Source: JBDROU01 sp043809745 [NCBI: bacterium] (GTDB lineage: Bacteria; Elusimicrobiota; JBDRMW01). From it: DNA of 16,772 nucleotides. The DNA lies in contig JBDROU010000030.1 of the NCBI GenBank assembly GCA_043809745.1, forward strand, positions 1-16,772. The letters run 5' to 3'. The notes under the pieces are model-generated. The model ran no database searches and was not told where the DNA came from. It worked only from the letters and a program-made list of their open reading frames with translations. Numbering within the stretch: the stretch's first letter is position 1; the number at the start of each line of letters is the position of its first letter. A program made the position numbers and the translations under genes. Of the stretch, positions 853 to 16,245 are shown piece after piece.

Positions 853-2420
853 CTTTGCGTAACTCTGATCTTGAACTTCTTGTAGATGTGTCCAGAATAA
901 TATCTTCAAAACTTAATTTGAAAGAGTTGCTTGAAACCATAATGGAATGCGCAACAAGGGTTGTTAGGGCTGAAGCATCCAGTCTTTTGCTTGTTGATGA
1001 GAAAACACATGAGTTGTATTTTGATGTTGCATTGGGTGATAAAGGCGACGAAATAAAGACAATACGCCTAAAAATGGGTGAAGGTATTGCCGGGTGGGTT
1101 GCCAAGAATAAGGCTGCGGCTGTAGTAAATGATGTTTCTTCTGACTCAAGATGGACTCAAAAAGCTGATGACAAAACAAGTTTTAATACAAAGGCTATAT
1201 TAGCTGTGCCGCTGCTTGCTAAAGGGAGAGTGGTCGGGGTTATAGAAGCTATAAACAGACTTGACAATCAGCCTTTCAGCGATGAGGATCAGAAGATATT
1301 CGAAGCATTCGCGTCCCAGGCAGCTGTTGCTATAGAAAATGCGCAGCTTTTCAGCAAATTGAAAGAAGAAAAGGATAAAATTGAAACTGTTTTTTCTGAG
1401 ATGTCAGATGGCGCATTATTAATAGATGAAGTTGGACAAACCGTACTTTATAATAACGGCGCTTGCAGACTGCTTGGTTTAGGGGACAGAGAATATTACC
1501 AGCTTAAGGTAGATGAGATGCTGAAAGATTTTGAAATAATGCCTTCTATAGAAGACATAATGAAAAAAGAAGAGGATATGTTTCCTATAGAGATGGTTAG
1601 AAGGAAAGGGAAGGTGCTTGTTCTTCAGGGAATAGTTAATCGCCTGACATCTGATGATGGATCAGTAATTGGTTATCTCTCAGTATTTCGTGATGTTACT
1701 ATAGAAAAAAGAGAAGAGAGATTAAAACGGAATTTCTTGTCTTTAATTTCCCATAAACTAAAAACCCCATTGGTTTCTATTAATGGGTACATACCAATAT
1801 TTATGGAAGATTCAGAAAGACTGACTGAATTCCAGAAAAAGGCTCTCAATACTATTAAAAATCAAGGCAGCTACTTAGCTAATCTTGTTGAGAAACTCAT
1901 AAATTATACTATTGTTGAAGAGGAACAATTAAAACTGATAAAGAAGAAAATCCCGGTTAATTTGCTTGTTACAGAAGCGCTTATACATTTGAAAAATTTT
2001 GTAGATGAAAAAAATACTGAGATTCTAAAGGATGGAAGTTTAAAAGTAATGCCGGATGTTTTTGTTGATAGGGAACGTATGAGAGAGGCCTTAAAAAACG
2101 TTATTGAAAACGGAATAAAATTTAATAATAGTGATATCAAAAAAGTTACGATCTCGGCCAGGTCTCAGGATAATTTTGTTTATATTGATATTCTTGATAA
2201 CGGGCCTGGTATACCGTCCGAAGAGCAGGAAAAAATATTTCAAAAATTCTATCAGATTGAAGAAAGCTTTACCGGACAAGTGGAAGGTGTGGGATTGGGG
2301 CTTGCTTTCGCCAGGATGGTATTAGAGGCCCATGACGGCGGGATATCGGTTCAATCTATAATCGGGCAGGGGAGTCATTTTATTTTGGTAATACCTATCG
2401 CAGAGACAAATGGACAATAA
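849..2420 (+). CDS. GAF-PAS sensor histidine kinase
   Basis: A 523-residue sensor kinase with no membrane segment, so probably cytoplasmic. A GAF domain spans about residues 5-165 (GEGIAGWVA at 78-86) and is followed by a short coiled stretch. A PAS domain spans about 178-285, followed by the dimerisation helix and an ATPase domain. The phosphoacceptor is His302 in SHKLKTPL. The N box has Asn417 and Asn421, the G1 box is DNGPGIP (450-456), the F box is IFQKFYQ (463-469), and the G2 box is GVGLGLAFA (480-488). Most kinases of this class have Glu or Asp directly after the histidine; here it is Lys303. The start overlaps the DUF502 stop and has GAGGAG six to eleven bases upstream. It overlaps tldD by 11 bases. 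No response regulator gene is adjacent; the nearest is at 16246. The signal sensed cannot be read from the sequence. Confidence 0.9.
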   Translation: MTLRNSDLELLVDVSRIISSKLNLKELLETIMECATRVVRAEASSLLLVDEKTHELYFDVALGDKGDEIKTIRLKMGEGIAGWVAKNKAAAVVNDVSSDSRWTQKADDKTSFNTKAILAVPLLAKGRVVGVIEAINRLDNQPFSDEDQKIFEAFASQAAVAIENAQLFSKLKEEKDKIETVFSEMSDGALLIDEVGQTVLYNNGACRLLGLGDREYYQLKVDEMLKDFEIMPSIEDIMKKEEDMFPIEMVRRKGKVLVLQGIVNRLTSDDGSVIGYLSVFRDVTIEKREERLKRNFLSLISHKLKTPLVSINGYIPIFMEDSERLTEFQKKALNTIKNQGSYLANLVEKLINYTIVEEEQLKLIKKKIPVNLLVTEALIHLKNFVDEKNTEILKDGSLKVMPDVFVDRERMREALKNVIENGIKFNNSDIKKVTISARSQDNFVYIDILDNGPGIPSEEQEKIFQKFYQIEESFTGQVEGVGLGLAFARMVLEAHDGGISVQSIIGQGSHFILVIPIAETNGQ

Positions 2421-3780
2421 GTTCTTTTTAGCACATTTATGTTATGGGGATTATGGAACAATCTTTATAGAAGATTCTGAGTTGTTATCAATTAATTGGG
2501 AGAATGGAAAGCTAGAGAATATTCAGTCCGGTGCAGATAAAGGGTTGGGCATTCACATCCAGTCTGGAGATGAATCATATTATTCGCACCAGAATACAGT
2601 AGATGCTGGATCGTTAGACAAAATAGTTAGTTCGCTCATTCCTAGAAATAAAAAGAAAAAACAATTAACAAAACCAATTCAGGAAGAAAAAGCGTTTTCC
2701 CATCCAGTAAAAATAAAAGCAAATGAAATAGAATTAAATAGTAAAATAGGTTTCTTGAAAGATGTTAATGGATATATTGCTTCATCTGACAGCAAAATTA
2801 AACAAGTAGTCATACGATACGGCGAGAAAAATAAAAAAATAAAAGTGATAAGTTCCGACGGATGCGTATCGAGCGAAATCAGGGATTATGTTGTAGTGTT
2901 TGTTTCTGTAATTGCGGCTGATCAAGGTGATATTCAAACAGCCACAGAAGTTGTAGGAGGAATTGGTGGTTTTGAATTGATAAGGGAAACTGATTGGAAA
3001 ACAATATCAAAACGCTTAGCGTCACTAGTAATAAATAAACTGTCTGCTCCATATCTGCCGGCAAGAGAGATGCCGGTAGTTCTGTCAAGCGAGGCGGGCG
3101 GAACGATGATACATGAAGCTATCGGTCATAATCTGGAAGCCGATGCTGTTCAGAAGGGGATATCGCCTCATTTTGCCAATAAAAAAGGAAAAAAGGTCGC
3201 AAACGAATTAGTTAGTATTGTTGATGATCCAACATTAGCTGGGAAGAGAGGGTCATATTTTATTGATGACGAAGGAGTCATTGCTCAAAAGACTGTGTTG
3301 GTTGAAAATGGATTGTTAAAAGATTACCTTTATGACAGGTATACTGCATTAAAGGATAAGCGAGAATCCAATGCACACGGAAGAAGAGAGTCTTTTCAGA
3401 CAAAACCTATTCCAAGAATGGCAAATACTTTCATTCTGCCCGGCAGCAGCAGTCCATCGGATATAGTAAGATCACTAAAGGATGGGTTGTTGGTTAAAAA
3501 GATGGGAGGCGGTCAAGTAAACACCGCTACCGGAGACTTTGTTTTTGAGGTGGAAGAAGGTTATTTAGTAAAGGAAGGTAAGCCTCAAAATTTAGTAAGA
3601 GGCGCTACATTGCTTGGTAACGGGCCGCAGGTTTTGCTGGATATAGATATGGTTGGAAATGATATGGGTTGGGGTATAGGTACGTGCGGTAAAGAAGGTC
3701 AGGGTGTGCCGGTGTCAGACGGCCAGCCTACTTTGAGGATCAAGAATATACTAGTTGGCGGTAGTTCGGAATCTAAGTAA
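2410..3780 (+). CDS. tldD: TldD/PmbA family metallopeptidase, TldD type
   Basis: A 456-residue member of the TldD/PmbA (U62) family. Known TldD-TldE complexes are heterodimeric metalloproteases that cut unfolded peptides, including modified peptide precursors and antitoxins; TldD carries the metal site. Here the zinc motif HEAIGH is present (His235, Glu236, His240), and the C-terminal GTCGKEGQGVPV (424-435), with Cys426, is the typical TldD signature. So this is the catalytic type, not the TldE/PmbA partner. Residues 80-100 form a Lys-rich low-complexity linker. No TldE gene lies in the window, so it may act as a homodimer or pair with a gene elsewhere. Its ATG lies inside the end of the kinase gene with only a weak ribosome site (CAGAGA), which suggests coupled translation. 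No peptide precursor is visible nearby. Confidence 0.88.
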   Translation: MDNKFFLAHLCYGDYGTIFIEDSELLSINWENGKLENIQSGADKGLGIHIQSGDESYYSHQNTVDAGSLDKIVSSLIPRNKKKKQLTKPIQEEKAFSHPVKIKANEIELNSKIGFLKDVNGYIASSDSKIKQVVIRYGEKNKKIKVISSDGCVSSEIRDYVVVFVSVIAADQGDIQTATEVVGGIGGFELIRETDWKTISKRLASLVINKLSAPYLPAREMPVVLSSEAGGTMIHEAIGHNLEADAVQKGISPHFANKKGKKVANELVSIVDDPTLAGKRGSYFIDDEGVIAQKTVLVENGLLKDYLYDRYTALKDKRESNAHGRRESFQTKPIPRMANTFILPGSSSPSDIVRSLKDGLLVKKMGGGQVNTATGDFVFEVEEGYLVKEGKPQNLVRGATLLGNGPQVLLDIDMVGNDMGWGIGTCGKEGQGVPVSDGQPTLRIKNILVGGSSESK

Positions 3781-3829
3781 AACGAGGTCGCTTGTATAAA
3801 ATATCTTGAAATAATAAGGATTTATATCA

Positions 3830-6055
3830 ATGAAAAAAATCTTAATGGCAGCAATATTATGTTGTTTTATGGCGGGTAAGTTGTTTCCTATAGAAAACAA
3901 ACCTATAGAGCATTCTAATGTCCCTGTTTCAGAAGCATATGGGCATTATCTGAATGCGCTTCTCTTGGAACGCAGTGAAGAGTACGATGGAGCCATTGAA
4001 GAGTACAAGAAAACACTTGAGTTAGATGATAAAGCGGTGTTTGTTTATAGGAGTTTGGCAAACTTATATTTGCGGATTGGGAAAGTAGATGAAGCATTAG
4101 AAATATCAGAAAAGATGATAGAGATAAATAAAAATGATGCAGATGCTTACCTGTTTCTTGGGATGATATATTTTGCCAAGAAAGATACGGTTAAAGCTAA
4201 CGATTTGTTTGAAAAAGCTTTTGAACTGGATAATGATAAAAAAGAGGCACTTCTATATATTGCCAATCTAAATAGAAATGATAATCCTGCAAAATCGATT
4301 AAGTATTTTAATAAGTACCTGTCATTTGACCCTGAAAATGGTGAAATCTACTATCAGATGGCAATCATACACATTGAAAGCAAGAACCAGGCAAAAGCAG
4401 TCGAAAACCTTAAAAAAGCGATAGAACTAAATCCAGACCATTTTCAGGCTCACTTAGCTCTTGCCAGAGAGTATGAAAAAAACAAGAAGATGAATGATGC
4501 GATTAAAGAATACACAAAATGCCTTGAGCTGGATCCTGAAAATCGACTGTTGGCTGAGTATCTGGGTACGCTTTACTTAGAGAGCAGTAATTTTAAAGAA
4601 GCTGAAAATGTATTCAAAAAAATCAACAAAGATGCAACCAGCGACATGCTGTCAAATTTCTGGTTAGGTATTTTAGCGGAAGAAAAGAGCGATTGGGATA
4701 TAGCTATAAAATATATTGAATCAATGCCGAAGTATAAAGAAGATGTAAGTCTATTGCTTCGCTTAAGCTATTATTATGCAAGATTAAAGAAAACAAAGAA
4801 GTCAGTTTCTATTTTGAAGAGAGCCAATATATTAGAACCAAATAATCCAGAAGTTTGTTTTTTTCTTGCTATCGGATATGAGGCGATTAATAAGCTAAAA
4901 CATGCACGCAAATATTTCAAGAAAGCTATAGAGTTAAAGGAGGATTTTGTTGAAGCTCATTTCCAACTAGGTGTAGTTGAAGATAAATTAAGGAATTTCC
5001 CGGCAGCTATTGACTCATTCTTGAACGCGGTTGAATACGACGAAAAACATACAGCAGCATATAATTACTTGGCTTATTCATATGCTGACAGGGGGATATA
5101 TTTAGAGGAGGCAGAGCAACTGGTAAAAGCAGCACTGAAAATTGATCCGGAAAATGGAGCTTATCTTGATACATTGGGATGGATCTATTACAAAACAGGA
5201 AAAATTGATGAAGCAATTGAGTACTTAACTAAAGCAAAGGGAAAGTTGATTGATCCAATAATAATGGACCATCTGGGCGATGCTGTATGGGTTAAAATGA
5301 GGAAAGAAAAAAAGAATGAATCAGCTGCGCCTATAAAAATATGGCAGGAAGCCTTAAAAGCATATCCAAAAAATAAAATAATAAAAAATAAAATTGAAAG
5401 GACGCAGGATATAGGTCTTGAATTTCCGGACTCTTTTAAGCGTTTATATATATTAAGAGCCTTGCTTCAAAATATTGCTGATCTTACGGGCTATATTAGA
5501 TTGGATGGAAAATATGGAAGCAGAGCTTTTCACATTCAAGGAATGTTTTATTTCAAGAAAGGAAATTCTCTCAGGATCGATTTGCTTGGTCCATTCATGG
5601 TGCCTCAGGGATCAATAGTTTATAAGGATGGAGCTTTTAAAACAGTCCCAAGCGAGTTAGGAGACAGACTTCTTAATGTAAATTCTATAGGATTTAACTT
5701 TCCATTAGCGATTAGCAAGTTAATAACTGAGTTCTTAAGCGCTGATATAATAAATGAGTTTTTGGATCCATCTACTATTGAAAAAAGCGGATGGAAAGTC
5801 TCTTCGTATAAAACGCTTTATTCAACCCTAAAATTATATAAAAGAAATAACTATATAAGTCAATATAGTTATATTTCAGAAAGCGGTTTAAGAGTAGTAG
5901 TGAATTTTGAGAACTATATTAATATAGAAGGGGTGCCTATGCCGCAATTAATTAGATTTAAAGTTCCTGAAATGGATATTGATATTCTGCTTCATTGTGG
6001 AAAGGTTGGCGTTAATAAGGGAATAAATGAAGAACTTTTTGATTTGTCAAAGTAG
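3830..6055 (+). CDS. Exported TPR-repeat protein with C-terminal LolB-like domain
   Basis: A 741-residue protein starting with a Sec-type signal (Lys-Lys, then a hydrophobic core at residues 4-16). Cys11 and Cys12 do not form a proper lipobox, so it is probably a soluble periplasmic protein, not a lipoprotein. Residues about 33-515 are tandem TPR units, about 13 by eye. The last units (DTLGWIYYKTGKIDEAIEYL at 447-466, then DHLGDAVWVK at 480-489) match the TPR protein encoded beside lolB in Pseudomonas-type genomes. Residues about 545-725 are beta-rich and read like LolB or DUF4292: a TGYIRL strand, a short FYFKKGNSLRIDLLGPF stretch (573-589), then strands ending in PQLIRFKVP (705-713). LolB inserts lipoproteins into the outer membrane. 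The gene sits directly before ispE, as lolB does in many Proteobacteria. An AAGGA ribosome site ends nine bases before the ATG. The TPR call is firm; the LolB-like call is by pattern only. Confidence 0.8.
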   Translation: MKKILMAAILCCFMAGKLFPIENKPIEHSNVPVSEAYGHYLNALLLERSEEYDGAIEEYKKTLELDDKAVFVYRSLANLYLRIGKVDEALEISEKMIEINKNDADAYLFLGMIYFAKKDTVKANDLFEKAFELDNDKKEALLYIANLNRNDNPAKSIKYFNKYLSFDPENGEIYYQMAIIHIESKNQAKAVENLKKAIELNPDHFQAHLALAREYEKNKKMNDAIKEYTKCLELDPENRLLAEYLGTLYLESSNFKEAENVFKKINKDATSDMLSNFWLGILAEEKSDWDIAIKYIESMPKYKEDVSLLLRLSYYYARLKKTKKSVSILKRANILEPNNPEVCFFLAIGYEAINKLKHARKYFKKAIELKEDFVEAHFQLGVVEDKLRNFPAAIDSFLNAVEYDEKHTAAYNYLAYSYADRGIYLEEAEQLVKAALKIDPENGAYLDTLGWIYYKTGKIDEAIEYLTKAKGKLIDPIIMDHLGDAVWVKMRKEKKNESAAPIKIWQEALKAYPKNKIIKNKIERTQDIGLEFPDSFKRLYILRALLQNIADLTGYIRLDGKYGSRAFHIQGMFYFKKGNSLRIDLLGPFMVPQGSIVYKDGAFKTVPSELGDRLLNVNSIGFNFPLAISKLITEFLSADIINEFLDPSTIEKSGWKVSSYKTLYSTLKLYKRNNYISQYSYISESGLRVVVNFENYINIEGVPMPQLIRFKVPEMDIDILLHCGKVGVNKGINEELFDLSK

Positions 6056-6115
6056 ATTTTTAAGCCTAATAATAAGCAGAAGGTTTTAATTTTATTTAAC
6101 TAGTCGTATCAATGA

Positions 6116-7033
6116 ATGAAAGTTTCAGTACCTGCCAAAATTAATTTGTATTTGAAAGTAGTGGCTCTCTTGCCCAGCGGCTATCATTATATCGAAACTA
6201 TATTCCATGAAATTTCACTTAGGGATGAGCTTATAATAAAAAAGGAAGCTTCGAGTGGAATTACACTGAAAGTAGACTCTGATTTTAAAAAAATGAAAAA
6301 TCTCAAAAAAAACAACAGCATAATAAAAGCATATGAATATTTATCAAAACATATAAGTAAAAAATTAGGTGTTTCAGTTACATTAAAAAAGAAAATCCCT
6401 TTAGGCGCTGGGCTCGGTGGCGGCTCAAGTGATGCTGCTGGACTTATACGGGGCATGAATGCCCTTTATAATTTAGGTTTAAGCATAAAAGAAGAGATGA
6501 ATATCGCATCTAAGGTTGGTGCTGATGTTCCTTTCTTTTTGAATGGAGGTTGTGCTTTAGGCATCGGGCGGGGAGATAAGATAAAAAATATTGATAATAA
6601 ATTTAAGTTTTGGGTTGTTTTGGTGTATCCTGAAGTGGCGGTTCCTACTGAATTCATTTATAAAGAATATGATAAATCAAGGAGTATACCAGTAATAGCG
6701 AAAAAGCATGAATATAAAGGATTGACATTATCTAAAAATATTATTAATATTAAGCGTTATTTAATAAATAATAATCGTCACAAATTGCTGTCAAATCTGC
6801 ACAATGATTTACAGGATATTGCTTTAAGTAAATATCCTCAGGTCAGTACTGCGTTATTGCTTTTGAAAGAGAATGGGGGTGAAATAGGCGGAGTCAGTGG
6901 AAGTGGATCTTCGGTTTATGCTTTGTTTTCTGATAAGAAAAAAGCGGAAGAATGTTTTAGAAGGATCATACGCAAAAGAAGGAAAAATGTTTGGTTGTTA
7001 GAAAACGGTTTAAATGGCATAATTATCAGTTAA
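6116..7033 (+). CDS. ispE: 4-diphosphocytidyl-2-C-methyl-D-erythritol kinase
   Basis: A 305-residue GHMP kinase that phosphorylates 4-diphosphocytidyl-2-C-methylerythritol with ATP in the cytoplasmic MEP route to isopentenyl diphosphate. The N-terminus has PAKINLYL (6-13) with Lys8, then the GHMP phosphate loop PLGAGLGGGSSDAAGL (95-110). Next come GADVPFFLNGG (135-145) with the catalytic Asp137, and the third GHMP motif GGVSGSGSS near residue 262. The length is slightly above the usual 280-300. The ATG at 6116 directly precedes the conserved N-terminus, but no ribosome site is visible just upstream; the overlapping ATG at 6112 is in another frame. It lies 60 bases after the TPR-LolB-like gene and 85 bases before spoVG. 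Confidence 0.95.
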   Translation: MKVSVPAKINLYLKVVALLPSGYHYIETIFHEISLRDELIIKKEASSGITLKVDSDFKKMKNLKKNNSIIKAYEYLSKHISKKLGVSVTLKKKIPLGAGLGGGSSDAAGLIRGMNALYNLGLSIKEEMNIASKVGADVPFFLNGGCALGIGRGDKIKNIDNKFKFWVVLVYPEVAVPTEFIYKEYDKSRSIPVIAKKHEYKGLTLSKNIINIKRYLINNNRHKLLSNLHNDLQDIALSKYPQVSTALLLLKENGGEIGGVSGSGSSVYALFSDKKKAEECFRRIIRKRRKNVWLLENGLNGIIIS

Positions 7034-7106
7034 AGAGTATGCTGTTCCGAACAGAGAATTGCCAAAGGTATTGATAAGCATTTTTGGTTATTTCAATGAT
7101 CTCCAT

Positions 7107-7113
7107 GAGGAGG
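7107..7113 (+). promoter_or_regulatory. Ribosome binding site that fixes the spoVG start
   Basis: GAGGAGG lies five bases before the ATG at 7119. It selects this ATG over an in-frame TTG 60 bases upstream, which has no ribosome site and would add 20 residues not found in the SpoVG family. Confidence 0.8.
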
Positions 7114-7118
7114 AACCG

Positions 7119-7382
7119 ATGGAAATCACAGAAGTCAAGGTTGCGTTAAGAGATGAGGAAAAATTGAAGGGTTATGCTACAATTACTTTCGATGATTGTT
7201 TTGTGGTTAGGAACATCAGATTAGTCAGGGGCGAGAAAGGCTTAATGGTGTGTATGCCGTCCAGGAAGATGAACGATGGTAAACACAAAGATGTTGCCCA
7301 TCCCATTAATAATGATTTTCGGCACAAAATCGAACAAAAAGTTTTGGCGGAGTATGAGTCTGAACTAAAACAAAAAAAATAG
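7119..7382 (+). CDS. spoVG: SpoVG family regulatory protein
   Basis: An 87-residue protein matching SpoVG over its whole length: MEITEVKV at the start, then ITFDDCFVVRNIRLV, GLMVCMPSRK, and HPINNDFRHKIEQKVLAEY. SpoVG proteins bind DNA and RNA and act as global regulators in Firmicutes and Borrelia; they also occur in many non-spore-forming bacteria, so this is not evidence of sporulation. The C-terminus ends in a Lys-rich tail. The start is set by the strong ribosome site at 7107-7113. Its place next to glmU and prs is the same as in Bacillus, but here a repeat element and a tRNA gene separate it from glmU. Confidence 0.93.
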   Translation: MEITEVKVALRDEEKLKGYATITFDDCFVVRNIRLVRGEKGLMVCMPSRKMNDGKHKDVAHPINNDFRHKIEQKVLAEYESELKQKK

Positions 7383-7441
7383 ATTAGTAACCTTGTTTCT
7401 GGAATTTTTCTCTAAAGATTACTCCAGCACATCGATTTACT

Positions 7442-7646
7442 GAGGTCTCTCAAAGAGTCTTTTGCTTAGCGAGGATCCTTCGACGTTGCTCATGATGGTG
7501 AGTGCAGTCGAATTATAGCAGCATCAGCGCTTACTTAGCGCAGTTGAGCGAAGCGTAAGTCCTGAGCTACCAGCAATAAAGGTAGTCCAAGGGTAGATCC
7601 TGAGCTCAGTCAAAGGATAGAAGAAAGGGACTTTTTGAGCGATCTC
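7442..7646. repeat. ~205-bp nested inverted-repeat element (family copy 1)
   Basis: This fills most of the gene-free stretch 7383-7688. The outer arms are GAGGTCTCTCAAAGAGTC (7442-7459) and GACTTTTTGAGCGATCTC (7629-7646), which pair at 15 of 18 positions. Inside is a second inverted pair, ATCCTTCGAC (7475-7484) and GTCAAAGGAT (7609-7618), matching 9 of 10. There are smaller hairpins at 7481-7510, 7530-7559 and CTACC/GGTAG (7567-7571 and 7581-7585). TCCTGAGCT is repeated directly at 7560 and 7598. The interior is visibly richer in G+C than the neighbouring genes, and I see no credible protein in it. The arms match those of the elements at 8559-8658 and 9637-9675. It looks like a non-coding miniature or structured dispersed repeat. 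Confidence 0.7.
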
Positions 7647-7664
7647 TGCTCTTCACAGTAAAAT
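7635..7664 (+). promoter_or_regulatory. Possible promoter for tRNA-Gln, partly inside the repeat arm
   Basis: TTGAGC (7635-7640) lies within the right arm of the repeat element and is followed after 18 bases by TAAAAT (7659-7664). Transcription would start near 7671, about 18 bases before the mature tRNA. The -10 is good, the -35 only moderate. Confidence 0.3.
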
Positions 7665-7688
7665 AAAAATTTTAGCTTTTTGATTAGT

Positions 7689-7760
7689 TGGGGCGTCGCC
7701 AAGCGGTAAGGCACGGGCTTTTGGAGCCCGCATTCGAAGGTTCGAATCCTTCCGCCCCAG
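7689..7760 (+). tRNA. tRNA-Gln (anticodon UUG)
   Basis: A complete cloverleaf of 72 bases. The acceptor stem is TGGGGCG with CGCCCCA (7753-7759), with U1-A72 as is usual for glutamine tRNAs, and the discriminator is G7760. The anticodon arm CGGGC-TTTTGGA-GCCCG places TTG at positions 34-36. The T arm is GAAGG-TTCGAAT-CCTTC (7736-7752). The 3' CCA is not encoded, so it must be added enzymatically. A tRNA-Gln gene between ispE and prs is also known from Pseudomonas genomes. Confidence 0.97.
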
Positions 7761-7784
7761 AAGAATTTTTAGCAGTTTCAGGAG

Positions 7785-7814
7785 TTTACTTAACCGGAAT
7801 AGTGGATTTATAAT
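7785..7814 (+). promoter_or_regulatory. Possible promoter before the glmU-like gene
   Basis: TTTACT (7785-7790) and TATAAT (7809-7814) are separated by 18 bases. The predicted start near 7821 leaves about six bases before the ATG at 7827, and no Shine-Dalgarno sequence is present, so translation from a nearly leaderless transcript is possible. Confidence 0.35.
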
Positions 7815-7826
7815 TTACCAAAATTT

Positions 7827-8600
7827 ATGATAGAAAATATGCATGCTGTGGTTCTGGCTGGCGGTGAAGGAACAAGAATGAAGTCACAGCTTCCCAAAGT
7901 GCTGCATAAAGTTAAGGGCAAGCCAATGATAGAGTATGTTTTGGAAGCCGTCAATGAAGCTGGTATTTGCGAAACAGGAGTAGTAGTAGGATTTAAAGCA
8001 GAAGCCATAAAAAATTATTTTAAGTGGAACAAAAAACTTAGTTGGTTTTATCAGAACAAGCAATTAGGGAGTGCTAATGCGCTCTTGAGCGCGGACTCGT
8101 TTTTAGATAATGATAATCAACTACTGGTTTTATGCGCTGATACTCCTTTGATAAAGGCTAAGACTTTAAAAAATTTTGTGCAGTTTCACCTTAATAATGA
8201 CAATGATATTTCAATTTTGACTGCAAAATTGGAGAACCCTTTTGGGTATGGAAGGATTTTGAAAGATAATAAAGGATTAGTTGTAAAAATAGTGGAAGAG
8301 AAAGATGCTTCCGATGAAGAAAGAAGCATAAGTGAAGTAAATAGTGGTATTTACTGTTTCAGGAATAAGAATATAAAGTCATTTCTGAAAAAAATAAAAC
8401 CGGACAATGCAAAAAATGAATATTATCTGACTGATTTAGTTGAGTTGATTGCTAAGTCCGGAAGGAGGGTGGAGAGTTTCCCTGTGGAAAACACAATAGA
8501 AATAACAGGAATAAATAGCCGGGATCAGCTAATAATGGTTGAAGAGTTAATTAATAAAAGATCGCTCAAAAATTCACTTGGTTCGGCTAGCTCACCATAA
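7827..8600 (+). CDS. glmU: GlmU-like nucleotidyltransferase, uridylyltransferase half only
   Basis: A 257-residue protein matching the N-terminal half of GlmU, which makes UDP-GlcNAc from GlcNAc-1-phosphate and UTP. Seen are the nucleotide loop LAGGEGTRMKSQLPKVL (10-26) with Lys25, QLGSANAL (79-86; usually QLGTAHA), CADTPL (103-108) with the metal-binding Asp105, SEVNSGIY (169-176), NEYYLTD (197-203) and the linker GINSRDQL (228-235). Full GlmU is about 450 residues and adds a left-handed beta-helix acetyltransferase; here the protein stops exactly at that boundary. The last 13 residues and stop are encoded by the repeat element at 8559. The start could also be Met5; no ribosome site favours either. 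It sits before prs as in Bacillus. The acetyltransferase step must come from another gene, or the substrate may be a different sugar phosphate. Confidence 0.82.
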   Translation: MIENMHAVVLAGGEGTRMKSQLPKVLHKVKGKPMIEYVLEAVNEAGICETGVVVGFKAEAIKNYFKWNKKLSWFYQNKQLGSANALLSADSFLDNDNQLLVLCADTPLIKAKTLKNFVQFHLNNDNDISILTAKLENPFGYGRILKDNKGLVVKIVEEKDASDEERSISEVNSGIYCFRNKNIKSFLKKIKPDNAKNEYYLTDLVELIAKSGRRVESFPVENTIEITGINSRDQLIMVEELINKRSLKNSLGSASSP

Positions 8601-8658
8601 ACCATCTTTAGCTAAATCGAAGAATTTTCGCTTCGAGTACCGCTTTTTGAGAGATCTC
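8559..8658. repeat. ~100-bp inverted-repeat element (family copy 2) overlapping the glmU 3' end
   Basis: The left arm GATCGCTCAAAAA (8560-8572) pairs with TTTTTGAGAGATC (8644-8656) at 12 of 13 positions. The interior holds a smaller hairpin, TCGAAG/CTTCGA, around 8618-8637, and is unrelated to the interior of the copy at 7442. The left arm lies in the last codons of glmU. The right arm ends eight bases before the AGAGGAG ribosome site of prs. Confidence 0.65.
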
Positions 8659-8674
8659 ATAGAGAGGAGATGTT

Positions 8675-9619
8675 ATGCCTAGTCAGTTAAAATTATTTAC
8701 TGGTAATGCAAATGTAAGTTTAGCGAAGGAGATTGGCAGCAGATTAAATATGCAGTTAGGCAATATAGAGGTCGGACGTTTCCCTGATGCTGAAATCGAA
8801 ATAAAGATTAAAGAAAATGTACGCGGTTGTGATGCTTTTATTATACAACCAACGAGTTTTCCAGCAAACGAGCATTTGATGGAGCTGCTTCTTATCGTTG
8901 ACGCATTGAAGAGGGCTAGCGCCCGCAGAATAACTGCTGTAATACCGTATTATGGTTATGCCAGAGCTGATCGCAAGGCGGAACCAAGAGTGCCAATTTC
9001 AGCAAAGTTGGTTGCTAATCTGCTTACGGCAAGCGGTGCTGATAGAATTCTTACTATGGATTTACACGCAGGTCAGATTCAAGGTTTCTTTGATATCCCC
9101 GTTGATCATCTATATGCAACACCAGTATTTATAGATTACTTTAAGAAAAAGAAATTGACCGATCTTGTTGTTGTATCCCCGGATGCCGGTGGAGTGGAAC
9201 GAGCCAGAGTGTTTGCGAAATTATTAGAATGCGATCTGGCAATTGTAGATAAAAGAAGAATCTCTCCAGATTCAACGGCTGTGATGCATATTATAGGAGA
9301 TGTTAAGAAAAAGAATGTTCTGATAATTGATGATTTGATTGATACTGGCGGTACATTATGTAAAACATGCGATGCGCTTAAAGAACAAGGCGCTTTAAGA
9401 GTTTTCTCAGCGTGCGCCCATGGGGTTCTTGCGGGTAATGCAATCGAGAAGATCAAAAATTCGTGTTTAGAAGAGATTGCCATTACAAACTCAATTGAAG
9501 TAGGTAATAGAAAGATTAAAAAGCTGGTTGTTCTGTCTGTTGCAGGTTTATTGAGTAAAGCTATTAGAATGATACATGAAGAAAAATCCGTGAGCAAGCT
9601 GTTTATAAATGTGCAATAA
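8675..9619 (+). CDS. prs: Ribose-phosphate pyrophosphokinase (PRPP synthetase)
   Basis: A 314-residue class I PRPP synthetase, making 5-phosphoribosyl-1-pyrophosphate from ribose-5-phosphate and ATP for purine, pyrimidine, His, Trp and NAD synthesis. Seen are GRFPDAE (34-40), PYYGYARADRK (91-101), TMDLHAGQIQGFF (127-139) with the metal-binding His131, and SPDAGGVERAR (168-178). The flexible catalytic loop is VDKRRISP (191-198) with Lys193 and Arg195, and the PRPP loop is IIDDLIDTGGT (217-227). The length is normal (about 310-320). The ATG at 8675 follows AGAGGAG with normal spacing. It is flanked on both sides by members of the inverted-repeat family. Confidence 0.97.
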   Translation: MPSQLKLFTGNANVSLAKEIGSRLNMQLGNIEVGRFPDAEIEIKIKENVRGCDAFIIQPTSFPANEHLMELLLIVDALKRASARRITAVIPYYGYARADRKAEPRVPISAKLVANLLTASGADRILTMDLHAGQIQGFFDIPVDHLYATPVFIDYFKKKKLTDLVVVSPDAGGVERARVFAKLLECDLAIVDKRRISPDSTAVMHIIGDVKKKNVLIIDDLIDTGGTLCKTCDALKEQGALRVFSACAHGVLAGNAIEKIKNSCLEEIAITNSIEVGNRKIKKLVVLSVAGLLSKAIRMIHEEKSVSKLFINVQ

Positions 9620-9636
9620 ATTAAAGAATATATAAA

Positions 9637-9675
9637 AGATTGCTCAAAAAGTCGCTGCCACTTTTTGAGAGATCT
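9637..9675 (+). repeat. 39-bp hairpin (family copy 3) between prs and rplY
   Basis: AGATTGCTCAAAAAGT (9637-9652) and ACTTTTTGAGAGATCT (9660-9675) form a 16-bp stem with one G-U pair and one mismatch around a 7-base loop, CGCTGCC. These are the same arms as in the copies at 7442 and 8559, with nearly no interior. It ends five bases before the AAGGAGG site of rplY. No T-run follows, so it is not a canonical terminator; it could attenuate, stabilise or mark processing of the message. Confidence 0.7.
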
Positions 9676-9691
9676 CTATTAAGGAGGAAGT

Positions 9692-10387
9692 ATGGAAGAA
9701 GTTAATGTTGAGGCTCAAGAAAGAAAAGAGTTAACAAAAGGTCAAATAAAGGAAAGCCGTAGAAAAGGATTAATACCAGCAGTAATTTATGGTCATGGAG
9801 AAAATAGCAGTGTTTTTGTAAATGAAAAAGCTTTTCGCGAAGCGATTCATACACATGCCGGCTTAAACGCGATTATTAACATGAAGTTGGGTAATGGATC
9901 TTATAAAGTAATAGTTAAAGATATTCAGCGTAATCCAATTACAGATAATCCAATTCATGTTGATTTCCAGAGTATTTCACTTAAGGAGAAAATAGAAGTT
10001 AATGTTCCTTTGCGTATAATAGGCGAGGCACTGGGTGTAAAGGAAAAAGGTGGTGTGGTGGAACATATAGTCAGAGAAGTAGAGATTAAATGTTTGCCCA
10101 CTAATATTCCTGAGGAGTTTGTAGTAGATGTTAGTGAACTGGATATCGGGCAGGGTATACATATGAAGGATATCCAAATACCTGATAATGTTGAATCCCT
10201 TATGGATCCGGAAATAGTGGTAGTACATGTTGTGTCATCCACAAAGATAGAAGAAGTTGCTGTAGCAGAGACTGCTACCGAGCTTTCTGCTGAACCAGAG
10301 GTTATATCAAAAGGCAAGAAGGAAGAAGAAGGGGAAGTTGGGAAAGAACAAAAAAAGGCTCCTCAAAAAGAAAAAGAGAAGCAGTAA
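9692..10387 (+). CDS. rplY: 50S ribosomal protein bL25, long CTC/TL5 form
   Basis: A 231-residue bL25 of the long (CTC/TL5) type, which binds 5S rRNA in the large ribosomal subunit. Residues 1-92 form the 5S-binding domain (KESRRKGLIPAVIYG at 20-34, KDIQRNPITDNPIHVDF at 76-92). Residues 93-185 form the C-terminal beta domain (VPLRIIGEALGVKEKGGVVE at 105-124, then SELDIGQGIHMKDI). After about residue 187 comes a low-complexity tail rich in Ala and Glu, then Lys and Glu, common in this family. AAGGAGG lies four bases before the ATG. It follows prs as in both Bacillus and Pseudomonas. Confidence 0.96.
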   Translation: MEEVNVEAQERKELTKGQIKESRRKGLIPAVIYGHGENSSVFVNEKAFREAIHTHAGLNAIINMKLGNGSYKVIVKDIQRNPITDNPIHVDFQSISLKEKIEVNVPLRIIGEALGVKEKGGVVEHIVREVEIKCLPTNIPEEFVVDVSELDIGQGIHMKDIQIPDNVESLMDPEIVVVHVVSSTKIEEVAVAETATELSAEPEVISKGKKEEEGEVGKEQKKAPQKEKEKQ

Positions 10388-10459
10388 AATATTTCTTAAA
10401 CAATCGGTTCTAAACTGCAATGATTTGAATTACGCTAGGTTCTATTGCGCAGGTTTGGT

Positions 10460-10465
10460 TATAAT
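10460..10465 (+). promoter_or_regulatory. TATAAT box immediately before pth
   Basis: A perfect -10 hexamer ends six bases before the ATG at 10472, so the start of transcription would fall at or next to that ATG, giving a leaderless message. No good -35 box is seen at the usual distance, and no Shine-Dalgarno precedes the ATG. Confidence 0.3.
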
Positions 10466-10471
10466 TTATTT

Positions 10472-11050
10472 ATGTGTAAATCAAATATAGAAGCAGTTGT
10501 AGGTTTGGGGAATCCGGGTAAACTTTATAGCGAAACATTTCATAATGCAGGTTTTTTGGTTGTCCAGAAAATGGTGCAGCCTAATGCAGCTTGGAGGAGC
10601 TGGAAGAATGTTGCTCGCGTAATATGGGATAAGCCAATATTGTTTCTGCCGCAAACTTTTGTTAACTTGTCCGGTAATGCTGTAAGATTACTGCTGGATT
10701 ACAGAAAGTTAAATGCAGATCAAATTCTAATTGTATATGATGATTTTTCTTTGGATTTGGGAAAGGTAAGAATAAAGCAAAAGGGATCTTCAGGGGGACA
10801 TAATGGATTGGCATCTATCATACAGAATCTCGGAACTGAGGATATCCCAAGAATTAGAGTTGGGATTGGACCGTTAGAAAATAACGGTCTTGCAAAAGAA
10901 TATGTGTTGAAGGTCCTAAAAGGTGATGTTAAGAATAAATTTATGAAAGTAGTGGATGCGACGGCTGAAATACTCAAATTCGTTTTGAAAAATGGAATTG
11001 AAAAAGCTATGAATACTTATAACGGATTGGAAGCATTAAATGAAAATTAA
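10472..11050 (+). CDS. pth: Peptidyl-tRNA hydrolase
   Basis: A 192-residue Pth, which frees tRNA from peptidyl-tRNA dropped by stalled ribosomes. Seen are VGLGNPGKLY (10-19) with Asn14, the catalytic His24 in TFHNAGF (family usually TRHNxG), PQTFVNLSG (60-68) with Asn65, VYDDFSLDLGKVR (88-100), and GSSGGHNGLASI (105-116). The ATG at 10472 is preferred because VVGLGNPG then starts at residue 9, as usual; an in-frame TTG at 10445 would add nine unusual residues and has no ribosome site. The stop overlaps the CBS gene by 11 bases. It continues the rplY-pth order known in many bacteria. Confidence 0.95.
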   Translation: MCKSNIEAVVGLGNPGKLYSETFHNAGFLVVQKMVQPNAAWRSWKNVARVIWDKPILFLPQTFVNLSGNAVRLLLDYRKLNADQILIVYDDFSLDLGKVRIKQKGSSGGHNGLASIIQNLGTEDIPRIRVGIGPLENNGLAKEYVLKVLKGDVKNKFMKVVDATAEILKFVLKNGIEKAMNTYNGLEALNEN

Positions 11051-11513
11051 AGAAATAATGATCCCTAATGTCGTGGCGATAAATCAAGAGATATCTATTA
11101 AAGAATTAGTGAAGGTTTTTATACAATACAAATTTGACATGCTGCCTGTTGTCAATAAAGAAAATCTGCTTGTTGGGAAAATTTCATTGGACGAGATTGT
11201 CTCTATTTTTTTTCCCAGGTACTATGATATAGTAAAGGATTATACATATATTGAGGATTTCGGGCTGCTCGAAAAGATCTTTGTTGCGCAGTCTTCTTTG
11301 CTTAATGAAGATAAACTGCTTCTTGCTTGTGATGTTATGAATCCAAAGGTTATTGCTATAGAGGAGGGATCTTCCGTTTTGCAAGCTGTAAGTTTGATGC
11401 AGTCATACGGGGTTAGCAGACTTCCGGTTATCTCTAATCAGAATAAACTTATAGGAATCATATCTCATATTGATATAATTCTTACTCTGTTAAAAAAAAG
11501 CTTCTGTCATTAA
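11040..11513 (+). CDS. Tandem CBS-domain protein
   Basis: A 157-residue cytoplasmic protein made of two CBS motifs and little else. CBS1 covers about residues 1-57 (KEIMIPNVVAI at 4-14, FDMLPVV at 32-38) and CBS2 about 97-152 (CDVMNPKVIAI at 97-107, YGVSRLPVI at 123-131). Between them is a 40-residue insert with FPRYYDIVKDYTYIEDFG (58-75). Paired CBS motifs bind adenine nucleotides and often gate transporters or enzymes. The gene overlaps pth by 11 bases and ends 12 bases before the exchanger-like gene, so control of that transporter is a reasonable inference. The ribosome site is weak (GGAAG), consistent with coupled translation. Confidence 0.87.
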   Translation: MKIKEIMIPNVVAINQEISIKELVKVFIQYKFDMLPVVNKENLLVGKISLDEIVSIFFPRYYDIVKDYTYIEDFGLLEKIFVAQSSLLNEDKLLLACDVMNPKVIAIEEGSSVLQAVSLMQSYGVSRLPVISNQNKLIGIISHIDIILTLLKKSFCH

Positions 11514-11525
11514 TGTTATTGTAAT

Positions 11526-12686
11526 ATGGATAATTTCTTTTTTACCGCGTTGTGGGCATTCCCTGCAATAATTTTTGCCGCATTGGTAATAGCATGGGCT
11601 GCAGAATGCAGCCAGTTCATGATTGCGCAGGGATTAGCTTTGGCGATTCTGGCGTGGCTTCAAACATTGCCTGAATTTGCTGTAGAGGCTGTTATAGCTT
11701 TTGAGGCTGGCAAGGATCCCTCAAAGATTCATCTTATAACTGCTAATTTCACGGGTTCTTTGAGGCTGCTTGTTGGATTAGGTTGGCCATTGGTTTTCTT
11801 TACTCAATTAATTTTTAATCTTAAAAGGCTGAACAGTAATTGGAGAAATTTGCTTGTTATCCGTTTGGAGGATTATCAGGCAATCAATGTTATTGCTTTG
11901 CTGCTGCCGTTAGTTTATTTTATATTTATTTTAATGAAGCAGTCATTATCTGTATACGACGGGCTTATTCTTGTAGGAATTTACATCTTATATCTATTCG
12001 TATTAAAAAAATTACCACCTAAGGATGAGGATGAGATCGAATCTGTTGGTCGTATACCAAAAATGGTGTTAAGACAACCTGTCAAATTTAGGGGATTGCT
12101 TATCATAAGTCTTTTTCTTGCAGGAGGCATTATATTGTTCTTCTCTGCACGTCCGTTTCTTCACTCCATGCTTGGTATAGCTGTATTTTTTGGGATATCT
12201 CAATTTATATTTGTGCAATGGTTAGCGCCATTTTTATCCGAGTTCCCGGAAAAGATAAGCGCGTTTTATTGGGCAAGAACCCCTCATCGCGCACCAATGG
12301 CGTTGACTAATTTGATATGTTCCAATATCAATCAGTGGACGGTATTAATAGGGATGGTTCCATTTATCTATGTGATAAGCTTGGGCAGTTTTAAGCCTAT
12401 AGTGCTTGATGCTTTTCAAACAGAAGAGATTATATTAACCATGCTGCAATCAGCGCTGGGAATGTTATTACTATGTAAAATGTATATTAAATGGTATGAA
12501 ATAGTTGGTTTATTCATATTATGGTTTATGCAGTTTATATTACCGCCTTTACGAATTCAAATAAGCATGATATATGCGGTATGGTGTATATATGAGGTTG
12601 TTTTGTTTTTTTATAAAGTTGAGCGCAGAAAGATAATTTATATACTTAAAGATGTTTATAAAAAACATCTTGCAGTCGCTAATTAA
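11526..12686 (+). CDS. Divergent Na+/Ca2+-exchanger-like membrane protein
   Basis: A 386-residue polytopic inner-membrane protein with about ten hydrophobic segments and a charged cytoplasmic-looking loop at residues 161-190. Two alpha-repeat-like stretches place it near the cation:Ca2+ exchanger (NCX) superfamily: LQTLPEFAVEAVIAF (45-59) with Glu50 followed by TANFTGSLRL (72-81), and WLAPFLSEFPEKI (232-244) with Glu239 and Glu242 followed by NLICSNINQWT (262-272). The classical GTS before the acidic residue is missing in both repeats, so the ion carried is uncertain; proteins of this branch are usually annotated as sodium:calcium or sodium:proton antiporters. The start lies 12 bases after the CBS stop with no clear ribosome site. 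Only two bases separate it from dnaE. Confidence 0.72.
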   Translation: MDNFFFTALWAFPAIIFAALVIAWAAECSQFMIAQGLALAILAWLQTLPEFAVEAVIAFEAGKDPSKIHLITANFTGSLRLLVGLGWPLVFFTQLIFNLKRLNSNWRNLLVIRLEDYQAINVIALLLPLVYFIFILMKQSLSVYDGLILVGIYILYLFVLKKLPPKDEDEIESVGRIPKMVLRQPVKFRGLLIISLFLAGGIILFFSARPFLHSMLGIAVFFGISQFIFVQWLAPFLSEFPEKISAFYWARTPHRAPMALTNLICSNINQWTVLIGMVPFIYVISLGSFKPIVLDAFQTEEIILTMLQSALGMLLLCKMYIKWYEIVGLFILWFMQFILPPLRIQISMIYAVWCIYEVVLFFYKVERRKIIYILKDVYKKHLAVAN

Positions 12687-12688
12687 TT

Positions 12689-15600
12689 ATGGCAATTTCA
12701 AAATTTGTGCATCTTCATAATCATACCGAATACTCCCTGCTGGACGGTGCCTGCCGCGTAAGTGATGAGCGCGGTAAACCAGGGGAGTTTATCAAGACAG
12801 CAGCTTCATATAAGATGCCTGCTCTTGCCATTACAGATCATGGTAATTTGTATGGAGCGATTGAATTTTATAAAAACTGTGTTGATTCAGGCGTGAAGCC
12901 GATAATTGGTTGTGAGATCTATGTGGCGCCGCACTCGCGTTTTGATAAACAGGCGCATAACGGAAACGGAACCAATTATTATCATCTAGTTTTGCTCGCA
13001 ATTAATGAGGTTGGGTATAAAAACCTTATGATGCTTTCTTCCAAAGGTTTTTTAGAAGGATTTTATTATAAACCGCGTGTTGATAAAGAATTGCTGAATA
13101 AACACAGCGAAGGGCTGATCGCCATGTCTGCCTGTCTTAAAGGAGAAATACCGCAGTCATTATTAAAAAATGATAAGGTTGCCGCCAAAAAAAGTTTGTA
13201 TGAGTATTTGGATATATTTGGGAAGGACAATTTTTATTTAGAATTGATGGACAATGGTATCGAAGATCAGAGGAAAGTGAAAGCAGATTTAATCGAGATG
13301 GGTAAGGCAAATAATGTGAAAGTTGTTGCGACAAATGATTGTCATTTTATGAAAAAGGATGATTCTTCAGCCCATGATGCGCTGCTTTGCATAGGAACGG
13401 GGAAGTTGTTAGATGATGTTAATCGGATGCGTTTTCAAACAAACGAATTTTATTTTCGTACTCCGGAAGAAATGGCTAAGTTGTTTTCTTCAGTTCCCGA
13501 GGCATTAACAAGCACAATTGAAATTACTGAAAAGTGCAACCTGAGTATTGATTTTAATCAGTTTTATTTGCCTAAATTTAACACCCCTGATAATGAATCA
13601 CCGGATTCATTATTGTCTAAGCTTGCTTTTCAGGGTCTAGAAAAGCGTTACGGATCCATCCAGCCTGAGCACAAAAATCGGTTAGATTACGAACTGGATG
13701 TAATAAAAAAGATGGATTTTTCCAGTTATTTTCTGATTGTATGGGATTTTATAAATTACGCTAAAAAGAAAGGAATACCGGTTGGCCCCGGAAGGGGTTC
13801 AGGCGCCGGGTCATTAGCTGCACATTGTTTAGGAATAACTGATATATGTCCCATAGAGCATGGTTTGCTTTTTGAGAGGTTCCTAAATCCGGACAGGAAG
13901 ACCATGCCGGATTTAGATATAGATTTTTCCGATCAAGGAAGGGAAGAAGTTATAGATTATGTAAAACAAAAGTACGGAAGAGAAAATGTTGCTCAGATCA
14001 TTACTTTTGGAGCCCTTATGGCAAGGTCGGTTGTCAGGGATGTTGGTCGTGTGATGAATATTGCGCTAAATGAAGTGGATAGGATCGCGAAATTAATTCC
14101 AAGAGAAGTTGATATGACGATTTCAAAGGCGCTGGCAGTTGTTCCAGAGCTAAAATCTATTTATAAGAGCGATCCGCGAATAAAAAAACTGCTTGATATA
14201 GGAACACGGTTGGAAGGGCTTAAACGCCATACGGGCGTTCATGCAGCAGGGATCGTCATTACAAAGGATATAATAAGCTCGTACACGCCGCTTGCGAAAA
14301 GTTCAAGAGACGTTGTGACCACGCAGTATAATGATAAATCACTCATAAGCTTAGGATTGCTTAAGGTCGATTTTCTAGGTTTAAGCACTTTAACTGTTAT
14401 AGACCAGGCATCCAAGGAGATTCAACAGAGGATAGATCAAAAATTTGATATTGAAAAAATACCAATGGACGATAAAAAAACATATTTTGTCTTAAGTTCA
14501 GGCAAAACTGTAGGTATTTTTCAGCTAGAATCTGAAGGGATGAGGGATCTGCTTCGAAAAATCAAACCAACCCAGTTAGGTGATCTGGTTGCGCTTATAT
14601 CTCTTTATAGGCCCGGGCCTATGGGTTCTGGAATGCTTGATGAGTTCGTGGCAAGAAAGCATAAAAGGGTAAAGGTTGCGTATGATCATCCGTTGTTAAA
14701 ACCTATTTTAGAGGATACATTTGGGGTAATACTGTATCAGGAGCAGGTTATTAGAATAGCGATTGATCTTGGAGGTTTTTCTCCCGGGAAAGCGGATAGT
14801 TTGCGCCGCGCAATGAGCAAGAAAATCCCTGAGGAGTTGGAACAAAGCAGAAATTCGTTTGTTGAAGGCGCAAAGCAGAAAGGTATTGATAAAACACTTT
14901 CAAATAAAATATTTGAGCAGATGGTTTATTTCAGCGGTTATGGTTTTAACAAATCGCATGCATCTGTCTATGCGCTTATTGCTTATAGGAGCGCTTATTT
15001 GAAAGCGCATTTTCCTGAAGAATTTATGTGTTCTCTTGTAACTTCTGAAATTGGAGGAAATACATCCAGTACAGAAAAAGAGAGTCGGTTGGTAATTTAT
15101 TTGAGAGAGGCTGAATCTTTAGGCATCCCTATATTGAAGCCTGATATTAATCTTTCTAAGCAGGTGTTTGCAATAGAACAGCACAGCAATAATGTAAATT
15201 CAGCAGCGCATAGAAAGCATGCTATCAGGTTTGGATTGCGCGCTATCAAGAATGTTGGAGAAGCGGCGGCAGACGCAGTAATAGAAGAACGAATCAATAA
15301 TAGCGATTTTAAGTCTTTTGATGATTTCTGCAAAAGGATTGATCAAAGTAAAGTTAATAAGAAGGTTATTGAGTCATTAATAAAAGTAGGAGCGATGGAT
15401 TGTTTTGGTGAAAAATCGAGTATGGTCAGGCCGAAATTACTTGGTTCAATGGAACAGATACTAATGCAAGCGCAGAAGATTAAAAATGAGTCCTCAATAG
15501 GGCAGGGAAGCCTGTTCAAATTAGAAGAAATCTCTAATGGCGAAATTGCGGAAGCTGAAAGTGTGCAAGAATGGGCAGAGCATGATCTTCTTGCTGTTGA

Positions 15601-16225
15601 AAAGGAGCTTTTGGGATTATATCTTTCCGGGCATCCGTTAGCTAAATTTAGTCATGAGTTGATGTGTTATTCACAAGTCCCGCTTTCCGGATTGAATGAT
15701 CATGTAAAAGCTAAGGGGACAAACGGGAGTATGCGCTTAGCAGGCATCATAACTAATATAAGGAAATTATTTACAAGAGAAAAAAAGGAACCATATGCCC
15801 GTTTTAGAATTGAGGATCTTGATGGTGAATTAGAATGCATTCTTTTCCCAAAGAATTTCTCTAGTAATAATGTTCAGCATTTAAAGCCTAACGAGGTTGT
15901 TGTTGTTAAAGGACGAATTAATAAAAGGGAAGAGAGTATAGAGTTTCTTGTTGATGAGATAATTCCATTAAAAAATGCAAAGAAACTTCTTATTCAGCAA
16001 GTGATTATTTCGCTCAGTACGGTGGGGTTAGATGAACTGCTTTTAGGACAGATTAGAAAAACGATAAGTCAATTCCCAGGGAGTGTTAAAGTGATATTTC
16101 ATATTCTTAATAGAAATGGAGAGACACTGGTCGTGGAAACTCCGGAACGGGTTGAAGTAAATGAAAAATTTCAAAAAGCGGTTAATAACATTCTTGGAAA
16201 AGAATCCTGGAAGATTAAGGTATAA
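12689..16225 (+). CDS. dnaE: DNA polymerase III alpha subunit
   Basis: A 1178-residue replicative polymerase of the DnaE1 type. The N-terminal PHP domain (about 4-280) keeps the metal ligands: His8, His10 and His12 in HLHNH, Asp50-His51, Glu76, Cys149, Asp217 and His219. E. coli DnaE has lost several of these. The polymerase core has GPGRGSGAGS (366-375) and PDLDIDF (407-413) with catalytic Asp408 and Asp410, plus Asp561 in KVDFLGL. A tandem HhH region lies at about 846-905. QGSLF (939-943) fits the beta-clamp binding motif. An OB fold spans about 1014-1092 and is followed by a C-terminal domain. The length is normal. The ATG two bases after the exchanger stop begins the conserved N-terminus; no ribosome site is seen, so translational coupling is likely. 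Confidence 0.97.
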   Translation: MAISKFVHLHNHTEYSLLDGACRVSDERGKPGEFIKTAASYKMPALAITDHGNLYGAIEFYKNCVDSGVKPIIGCEIYVAPHSRFDKQAHNGNGTNYYHLVLLAINEVGYKNLMMLSSKGFLEGFYYKPRVDKELLNKHSEGLIAMSACLKGEIPQSLLKNDKVAAKKSLYEYLDIFGKDNFYLELMDNGIEDQRKVKADLIEMGKANNVKVVATNDCHFMKKDDSSAHDALLCIGTGKLLDDVNRMRFQTNEFYFRTPEEMAKLFSSVPEALTSTIEITEKCNLSIDFNQFYLPKFNTPDNESPDSLLSKLAFQGLEKRYGSIQPEHKNRLDYELDVIKKMDFSSYFLIVWDFINYAKKKGIPVGPGRGSGAGSLAAHCLGITDICPIEHGLLFERFLNPDRKTMPDLDIDFSDQGREEVIDYVKQKYGRENVAQIITFGALMARSVVRDVGRVMNIALNEVDRIAKLIPREVDMTISKALAVVPELKSIYKSDPRIKKLLDIGTRLEGLKRHTGVHAAGIVITKDIISSYTPLAKSSRDVVTTQYNDKSLISLGLLKVDFLGLSTLTVIDQASKEIQQRIDQKFDIEKIPMDDKKTYFVLSSGKTVGIFQLESEGMRDLLRKIKPTQLGDLVALISLYRPGPMGSGMLDEFVARKHKRVKVAYDHPLLKPILEDTFGVILYQEQVIRIAIDLGGFSPGKADSLRRAMSKKIPEELEQSRNSFVEGAKQKGIDKTLSNKIFEQMVYFSGYGFNKSHASVYALIAYRSAYLKAHFPEEFMCSLVTSEIGGNTSSTEKESRLVIYLREAESLGIPILKPDINLSKQVFAIEQHSNNVNSAAHRKHAIRFGLRAIKNVGEAAADAVIEERINNSDFKSFDDFCKRIDQSKVNKKVIESLIKVGAMDCFGEKSSMVRPKLLGSMEQILMQAQKIKNESSIGQGSLFKLEEISNGEIAEAESVQEWAEHDLLAVEKELLGLYLSGHPLAKFSHELMCYSQVPLSGLNDHVKAKGTNGSMRLAGIITNIRKLFTREKKEPYARFRIEDLDGELECILFPKNFSSNNVQHLKPNEVVVVKGRINKREESIEFLVDEIIPLKNAKKLLIQQVIISLSTVGLDELLLGQIRKTISQFPGSVKVIFHILNRNGETLVVETPERVEVNEKFQKAVNNILGKESWKIKV

Positions 16226-16245
16226 TATGGATTAAGGGAGGTTTT

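Follow-up and report, generated by a model that had tools for sequence, protein, structure and literature searches.

Three hairpin-forming inverted-repeat elements of 205, 100 and 40 bases, here called E1, E2 and E3, lie inside 2.2 kb of DNA from an uncultured Elusimicrobiota-like bacterium, and we consider that they probably form one small non-autonomous mobile repeat family of the MITE/BIME/REPIN type. This reading is favoured over a regulatory RNA specific to the gene cluster because the two arms of a copy differ and E1 has them in flipped order, E1 and E2 have a core in common, that core is scattered in a few genomes of the phylum, and the relatives lack the arms. As in MITEs, the elements are short (40-205 bp), are bounded by facing terminal inverted repeats and contain no transposase gene, for which this length is too small.

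The window, i.e. the whole stretch of 16,772 nt that was analysed, carries on its plus strand the genes for a DUF502 protein, a GAF/histidine kinase, TldD, a TPR protein, IspE, SpoVG and tRNA-Gln, followed by those for GlmU (uridylyltransferase part only), Prs, RplY, Pth, a CBS protein, a Na/Ca-exchanger-like protein, DnaE and a response regulator. Seven of the proteins (GlmU, SpoVG, DUF502, TldD, TPR, CBS and exchanger) were run against Pfam, and the remaining names are a reading of the ORF sequences. The three elements are all found in the cluster spoVG - tRNA-Gln - glmU - prs - rplY, whose genes are co-directional (Table 1). A preliminary description of this DNA had placed facing arm pairs at 7442/7646, 8560/8656 and 9637/9675, all in gaps of this cluster and two of them ending just before the ribosome site of the next gene. 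The three pairs were borne out, as was the position before the ribosome site, with E2 and E3 ending 16 and 15 bases before the start codon. The location also stood, except that E2 overlaps the last codons of glmU and is therefore not purely intergenic. When the whole window was searched with Rfam, the tRNA alone scored above the curated value, and no RNA family was matched at E1, E2 or E3. The GC content of E1 is 0.48 versus 0.37 for the window.

Table 1. Coordinates of the elements, their parts and the neighbouring tRNA gene in the window.
Feature	Position	Strand	Description and basis
E1	7442-7646	- (flipped: right-type arm first, left-type last)	205 bp, spoVG/tRNA-Gln gap; arm alignment with diagnostic position 6, RNA fold
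E1 outer arm, right type	7442-7463	-	GAGGTCTCTCAAAGAGTCTTTT as read on the plus strand
REP-like palindromic core in E1	7476-7516	+	nhmmer profile of nine copies from other genomes, E 2.4e-6, partly circular
Possible second half-core in E1, facing the first	7597-7617	-	nhmmer E 0.82, weak
E1 outer arm, left type	7625-7646	-	reverse complement starts GAGATCGCTCAAAAAGTCCC
tRNA-Gln (TTG)	7688-7761	+	just downstream of E1; tRNA and Rfam searches
E2	8559-8658	+	100 bp, left-to-right, between the glmU uridylyltransferase part and prs
REP-like core in E2, ACCAT doubled	8576-8632	-	nhmmer E 8e-5 for 8579-8598, envelope 8576-8618; 8601-8632 aligns to the E1 core region
E3	9637-9676	+	40-bp solo hairpin, arms and 7-base loop, between prs and rplY

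The arms were searched for on both strands with the 16-base pattern CTTTTTGAGMGATCTC, allowing up to three mismatches. The window contains eight matches. Shuffled sequences averaged 0.43 and had 3 at most, with 0 of 200 reaching 8, and the arm matches in the window are not due to chance. Six of them are the arms of the elements, while the other two, at 12186 and 13868 and with three mismatches each, fall inside the ORFs of the exchanger-like protein and dnaE; no further facing arm pair was found in the rest of the window. When left arms were read forward and right arms as reverse complements, the arms turned out to be asymmetric, with a left type AGATCGCTCAAAAAGT and a right type ACTTTTTGAGAGATCTC. 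The left-type set consists of AGATCGCTCAAAAATTC (E2 left), AGATTGCTCAAAAAGTC (E3 left) and AGATCGCTCAAAAAGTC (E1 right), and the right-type set of AGATCTCTCAAAAAGCG (E2 right), AGATCTCTCAAAAAGTG (E3 right) and AGGTCTCTCAAAGAGTC (E1 left). The diagnostic base is at position 6, G in left-type and T in right-type arms, and every element has one arm of each type. The order is left to right in E2 and E3 and right to left in E1, which is the outcome expected if E1 had inserted the other way round or had been inverted. To judge from this one diagnostic base, with which the orientation of the core agrees, E1 looks like a flipped copy relative to E2 and E3, a feature absent from the preliminary description. 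For none of the three elements was a target-site duplication of at least 4 bases detected within 4 bases of its ends; a 3-base CTG, possibly fortuitous, is present on both sides of E1 if its ends are set at 7443 and 7645.

The same description favoured a mobile repeat, MITE or REP-like, on the grounds of constant arms with unrelated interiors. The mobile reading is indeed better supported than an RNA regulator, but on different grounds, and E1 and E2 prove to have related interiors. After reverse complementation, the E1 interior aligns with that of E2 over 32 bases with a score of 24, which only 7 and 6 of 2000 shuffles attained when one or the other partner was shuffled, whereas the best score without flipping was 14, reached by 1074 and 1189 of 2000 shuffles. 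What they share is a REP-like core, located on the plus strand in E1 and on the minus strand in E2, which is the same orientation relative to the arms. E3 has no core. In E1, the interior past the core (7517-7596) contains further palindromes (GCGCTTACTTAGCGC and others).

The core was then looked for in other genomes with CTTCGACNNGCTCANGATGGTGAG, a motif based in part on E1, in which NN is one base longer. Allowing one mismatch, it was found at 10 places in 5 of 334 phylum genomes, with 0 in the backwards control, and it was absent from the other 329. One place, in genome G160, was dropped because its flanks lack a second half-palindrome; the profile was built from the other nine, in four genomes (six in G329 and one each in G006, G175 and G003), whose position relative to genes was judged by eye only. 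This profile scored 21.6 and 16.8 bits in the window, against 11.6 (the dropped place) and then 10.1 in 1.31 Mb of other loci, and its next matches in the window after E1 and E2 were the half-core in E1 and noise (E 5). The match to E1 is partly circular, because E1 itself served in part as the model for the pattern that retrieved the copies, and that to E2 less so, as 12 of the 20 bases aligned there are not covered by this pattern. A single weak match in G168 (profile E 0.22) was excluded from the count. The six copies of G329 sit within a larger dispersed mosaic repeat. This repeat (L142, L144, L146-L149) is roughly 300 bp long; in the six copies seen, the REP-like core is accompanied by facing A/T-run arms peculiar to this repeat, CGGTTTTTC / GAAAAACCG. 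The core was not matched in plasmids at E 0.01 or in 25 further genomes, mostly of other phyla by title, viral contigs contained neither the core nor a facing arm pair, and the 16-letter core string had no match in the literature searched.

As an alternative, the hairpins could be cis-acting RNA elements, selected between cistrons for a part in the processing or stability of the spoVG-tRNA-glmU-prs-rplY transcript; the arm sequence would then be conserved because RNase III or a binding protein reads it. The placement of all three between co-directional genes, two of them next to a ribosome site, would suit this explanation, and so would part of the RNA predictions. Predicted folds had free energies of -77.4 kcal/mol for E1 (7436-7652; z -3.4), -25 kcal/mol for E2 (z -1.8) and -14.7 kcal/mol for E3 (z -2.6). 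All four non-Watson-Crick pairs in the predicted E1 stem are G-U on the transcribed strand, and for this reason the duplex of the E1 arms is more stable on the plus strand (-28.7 kcal/mol) than on the minus strand (-16.1 kcal/mol); E3 adds one U-G. For all five to fall on the transcribed strand, the chance is roughly 1/32 if changes are equally likely to favour either strand. This hints that the hairpin of E1 has been maintained at the RNA level, but it comes to five changes in all, the one of E3 included. E2 and E3 showed no strand asymmetry of duplex energy, and an element whose sequence is read as RNA would not easily tolerate being flipped as E1 is. Intrinsic terminators were considered and rejected, as E3 scores on the minus strand only and the window contains 11 terminator-like sites versus a shuffle mean of 10.3. 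Promoter-like sites in the window were not above chance either (49 versus 54 in shuffles).

The relatives argue further against a selected RNA element, which on balance we regard as unlikely. The gene order spoVG - tRNA-Gln - glmU - prs - rplY recurs in them without these arms. The best RplY matches were 50% identical in one search and 53, 50 and 54% identical for the first three in another, and the highest Prs identity among the loci compared was 68% (locus L118). In all 17 loci with spoVG and glmU on one strand within 3.5 kb, tRNA-Gln (TTG) lies between the two genes; two of these loci are titled Omnitrophota. In many relatives the gaps of this cluster would not accommodate an element. From spoVG to tRNA-Gln they measure 2-266 nt (median 62, 17 loci) versus 305 nt in the window, and from prs to rplY they are at most 35 nt in 32 of 86 loci, a set with at least one duplicate (L005 and L128 are the same contig), versus 72 nt in the window; in L118 this gap is only 17 nt long. 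Subtracting E1 and E3 leaves 100 and 32 nt in the window, so that both gaps come within the ranges of the relatives. Stems of at least 15 pairs between prs and rplY were present in 3 of the 81 relatives scored (5 with gaps of at most 14 nt were unscored), and they have other sequences.

It is also conceivable, though we think it quite unlikely, that one hairpin was merely duplicated among the gaps of the cluster by recombination or gene conversion and that there is no genome-wide mobile family. This explanation is supported by the three copies within 2.2 kb with no other pair in the window and by arms at chance level in the phylum, which count, as does the sparseness of the core, against a mobile family. 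The facing arm pair, for which the preliminary description had looked to related genomes, was found in 0 of 340 phylum genomes. With at most one mismatch, the arm gave six single matches in these genomes versus seven in the backwards control, i.e. not above chance, so that no second genome backs the outer ends; five of the six had, by eye, no facing partner in the preceding 150 bases. Arm matches in four relatives at three mismatches were rejected as noise (24 versus 34 in the backwards control), and at two mismatches the loci L001-L080 yielded one match, in a part of L076 that has no connection with the cluster. Local spread is disfavoured by the different orientation and flanks of the copies and by the occurrence of the core in dispersed repeats of other genomes; moreover, the window offers few other gaps, the DNA between listed genes from 205 to 16617 adding up to 829 bases.

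Integron attC sites have the boxes RYYYAAC and GTTRRRY at their outer ends, and recombination sites of this kind, or repeats of an invertible segment, would share with our elements the conserved arms, the variable interior, the conserved stem mismatch and one flipped element, but they are a very improbable explanation, as the arms read by eye lack these boxes, the intervening genes are conserved housekeeping genes in their usual order and not cassettes, and no integrase was recognised among the window ORFs (seven run against Pfam).

In a mobile repeat family, each copy would consist of two similar but distinguishable facing ends, of left and right type, around a palindromic REP-like core. E1 would be a long flipped copy and E2 a shorter one in the other orientation, while E3 would be a minimal coreless copy, either a deletion derivative or a bare hairpin where cores come and go. 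Such elements would persist between co-directional genes, where harm is small. Situated inside transcription units, they are probably transcribed and carried in the mRNA as hairpins, and may act there in processing or stability, as reported for Correia and ERIC elements. We infer past mobility, transcription and any RNA effect from these features, and likewise mobilisation in trans by a transposase, for which an IS200/IS605-like Y1 enzyme is one candidate.

Several known repeats resemble the elements. ERIC differs in being a single palindrome, about 127 bp long. The likeness, which is by description, lies in a small inverted-repeat element at gene ends for which an effect at the transcript level is described in a review (PMC10969869). 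According to the same review, Correia elements of Neisseria have terminal inverted repeats, lie beside genes and have been reported to invert, and RNase III cleaves transcripts at their terminal repeats. Here, too, the likeness is by description, and the Correia elements differ from ours, at which no target-site duplication of at least 4 bases was seen. REPINs and BIMEs, as presented in three papers (PMC3116915, PMC2817692, PMC3733652), have in common with E1, E2 and E3 facing palindromic units in long hairpins, an extragenic location, conserved ends, a variable spacer and a mosaic structure, and their mobilisation by Y1 (RAYT) transposases has been proposed. According to PMC3733652, REP families carry a GTAG or CGTC tag. 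In contrast, neither tag nor its complement was found at the palindrome ends of our elements; they are absent from E2 and E3, and GTAG, CTAC and GACG occur in E1 but inside only.

A further difference from REPINs and BIMEs concerns the Y1 genes. Genes matching Pfam Y1_Tnp (PF01797) were present in 6 of 7 related genomes examined, with 15 in G329 and none in G168. Such Y1 (IS200/IS605-like) transposase genes are numerous in phylum genomes (loci L130-L139 and L151-L165). None of the 15 genes of G329 had a core within about 1.5 kb (less at contig ends), so that a Y1 enzyme is only a candidate, and none was a RAYT gene flanked by two inverted repeat copies. One core of this genome is located about 3 kb from a Y1 gene, and in G327 and G001, which contain Y1 genes, the core was not matched. 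The elements were not assigned to a named family, since the search for target duplications, for GTAG/CGTC tags at the ends and, in G329, for a RAYT next to the core was negative. If our reading is correct, a small mobile hairpin family would be added to a phylum for which the literature on Elusimicrobi with MITE, REP or RAYT, judged by title and start of the abstract among the matches listed, describes no such repeats. Two orientations and three sizes in one cluster would make a compact case for a repeat that shrinks, flips and settles between genes, in what is otherwise ordinary repeat biology.

Finally, the overlap of E2 with glmU (7827-8600) affects the end of the protein, which has 257 amino acids and nucleotidyltransferase-type domains only (Pfam), without the C-terminal acetyltransferase half. 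The codons from 245 onwards and the stop (8600) come from E2. The start of E2 within glmU is blurred, since GlmU can be aligned with the proteins of 12 relatives up to residues 247-254, which is 3-10 residues past it. The residues LKN are encoded in the arm and occur in some relatives, which may be a chance overlap or may reflect this blurred left end. One might speculate that E2 inserted into glmU at or together with the loss of its acetyltransferase half and so remodelled this essential gene, whose 3' end would now consist of 13 codons plus the stop from the left arm and core, with the three hairpins together cutting one conserved housekeeping transcript into separately processed units, a scenario that seems unlikely to us. 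Among the 12 aligned relatives, eight GlmU proteins are 449-467 residues long, those of L002, L006 and L018 have 318-342 residues, and that of L126 has 308, with masked letters. Shortening of GlmU thus occurs elsewhere too.
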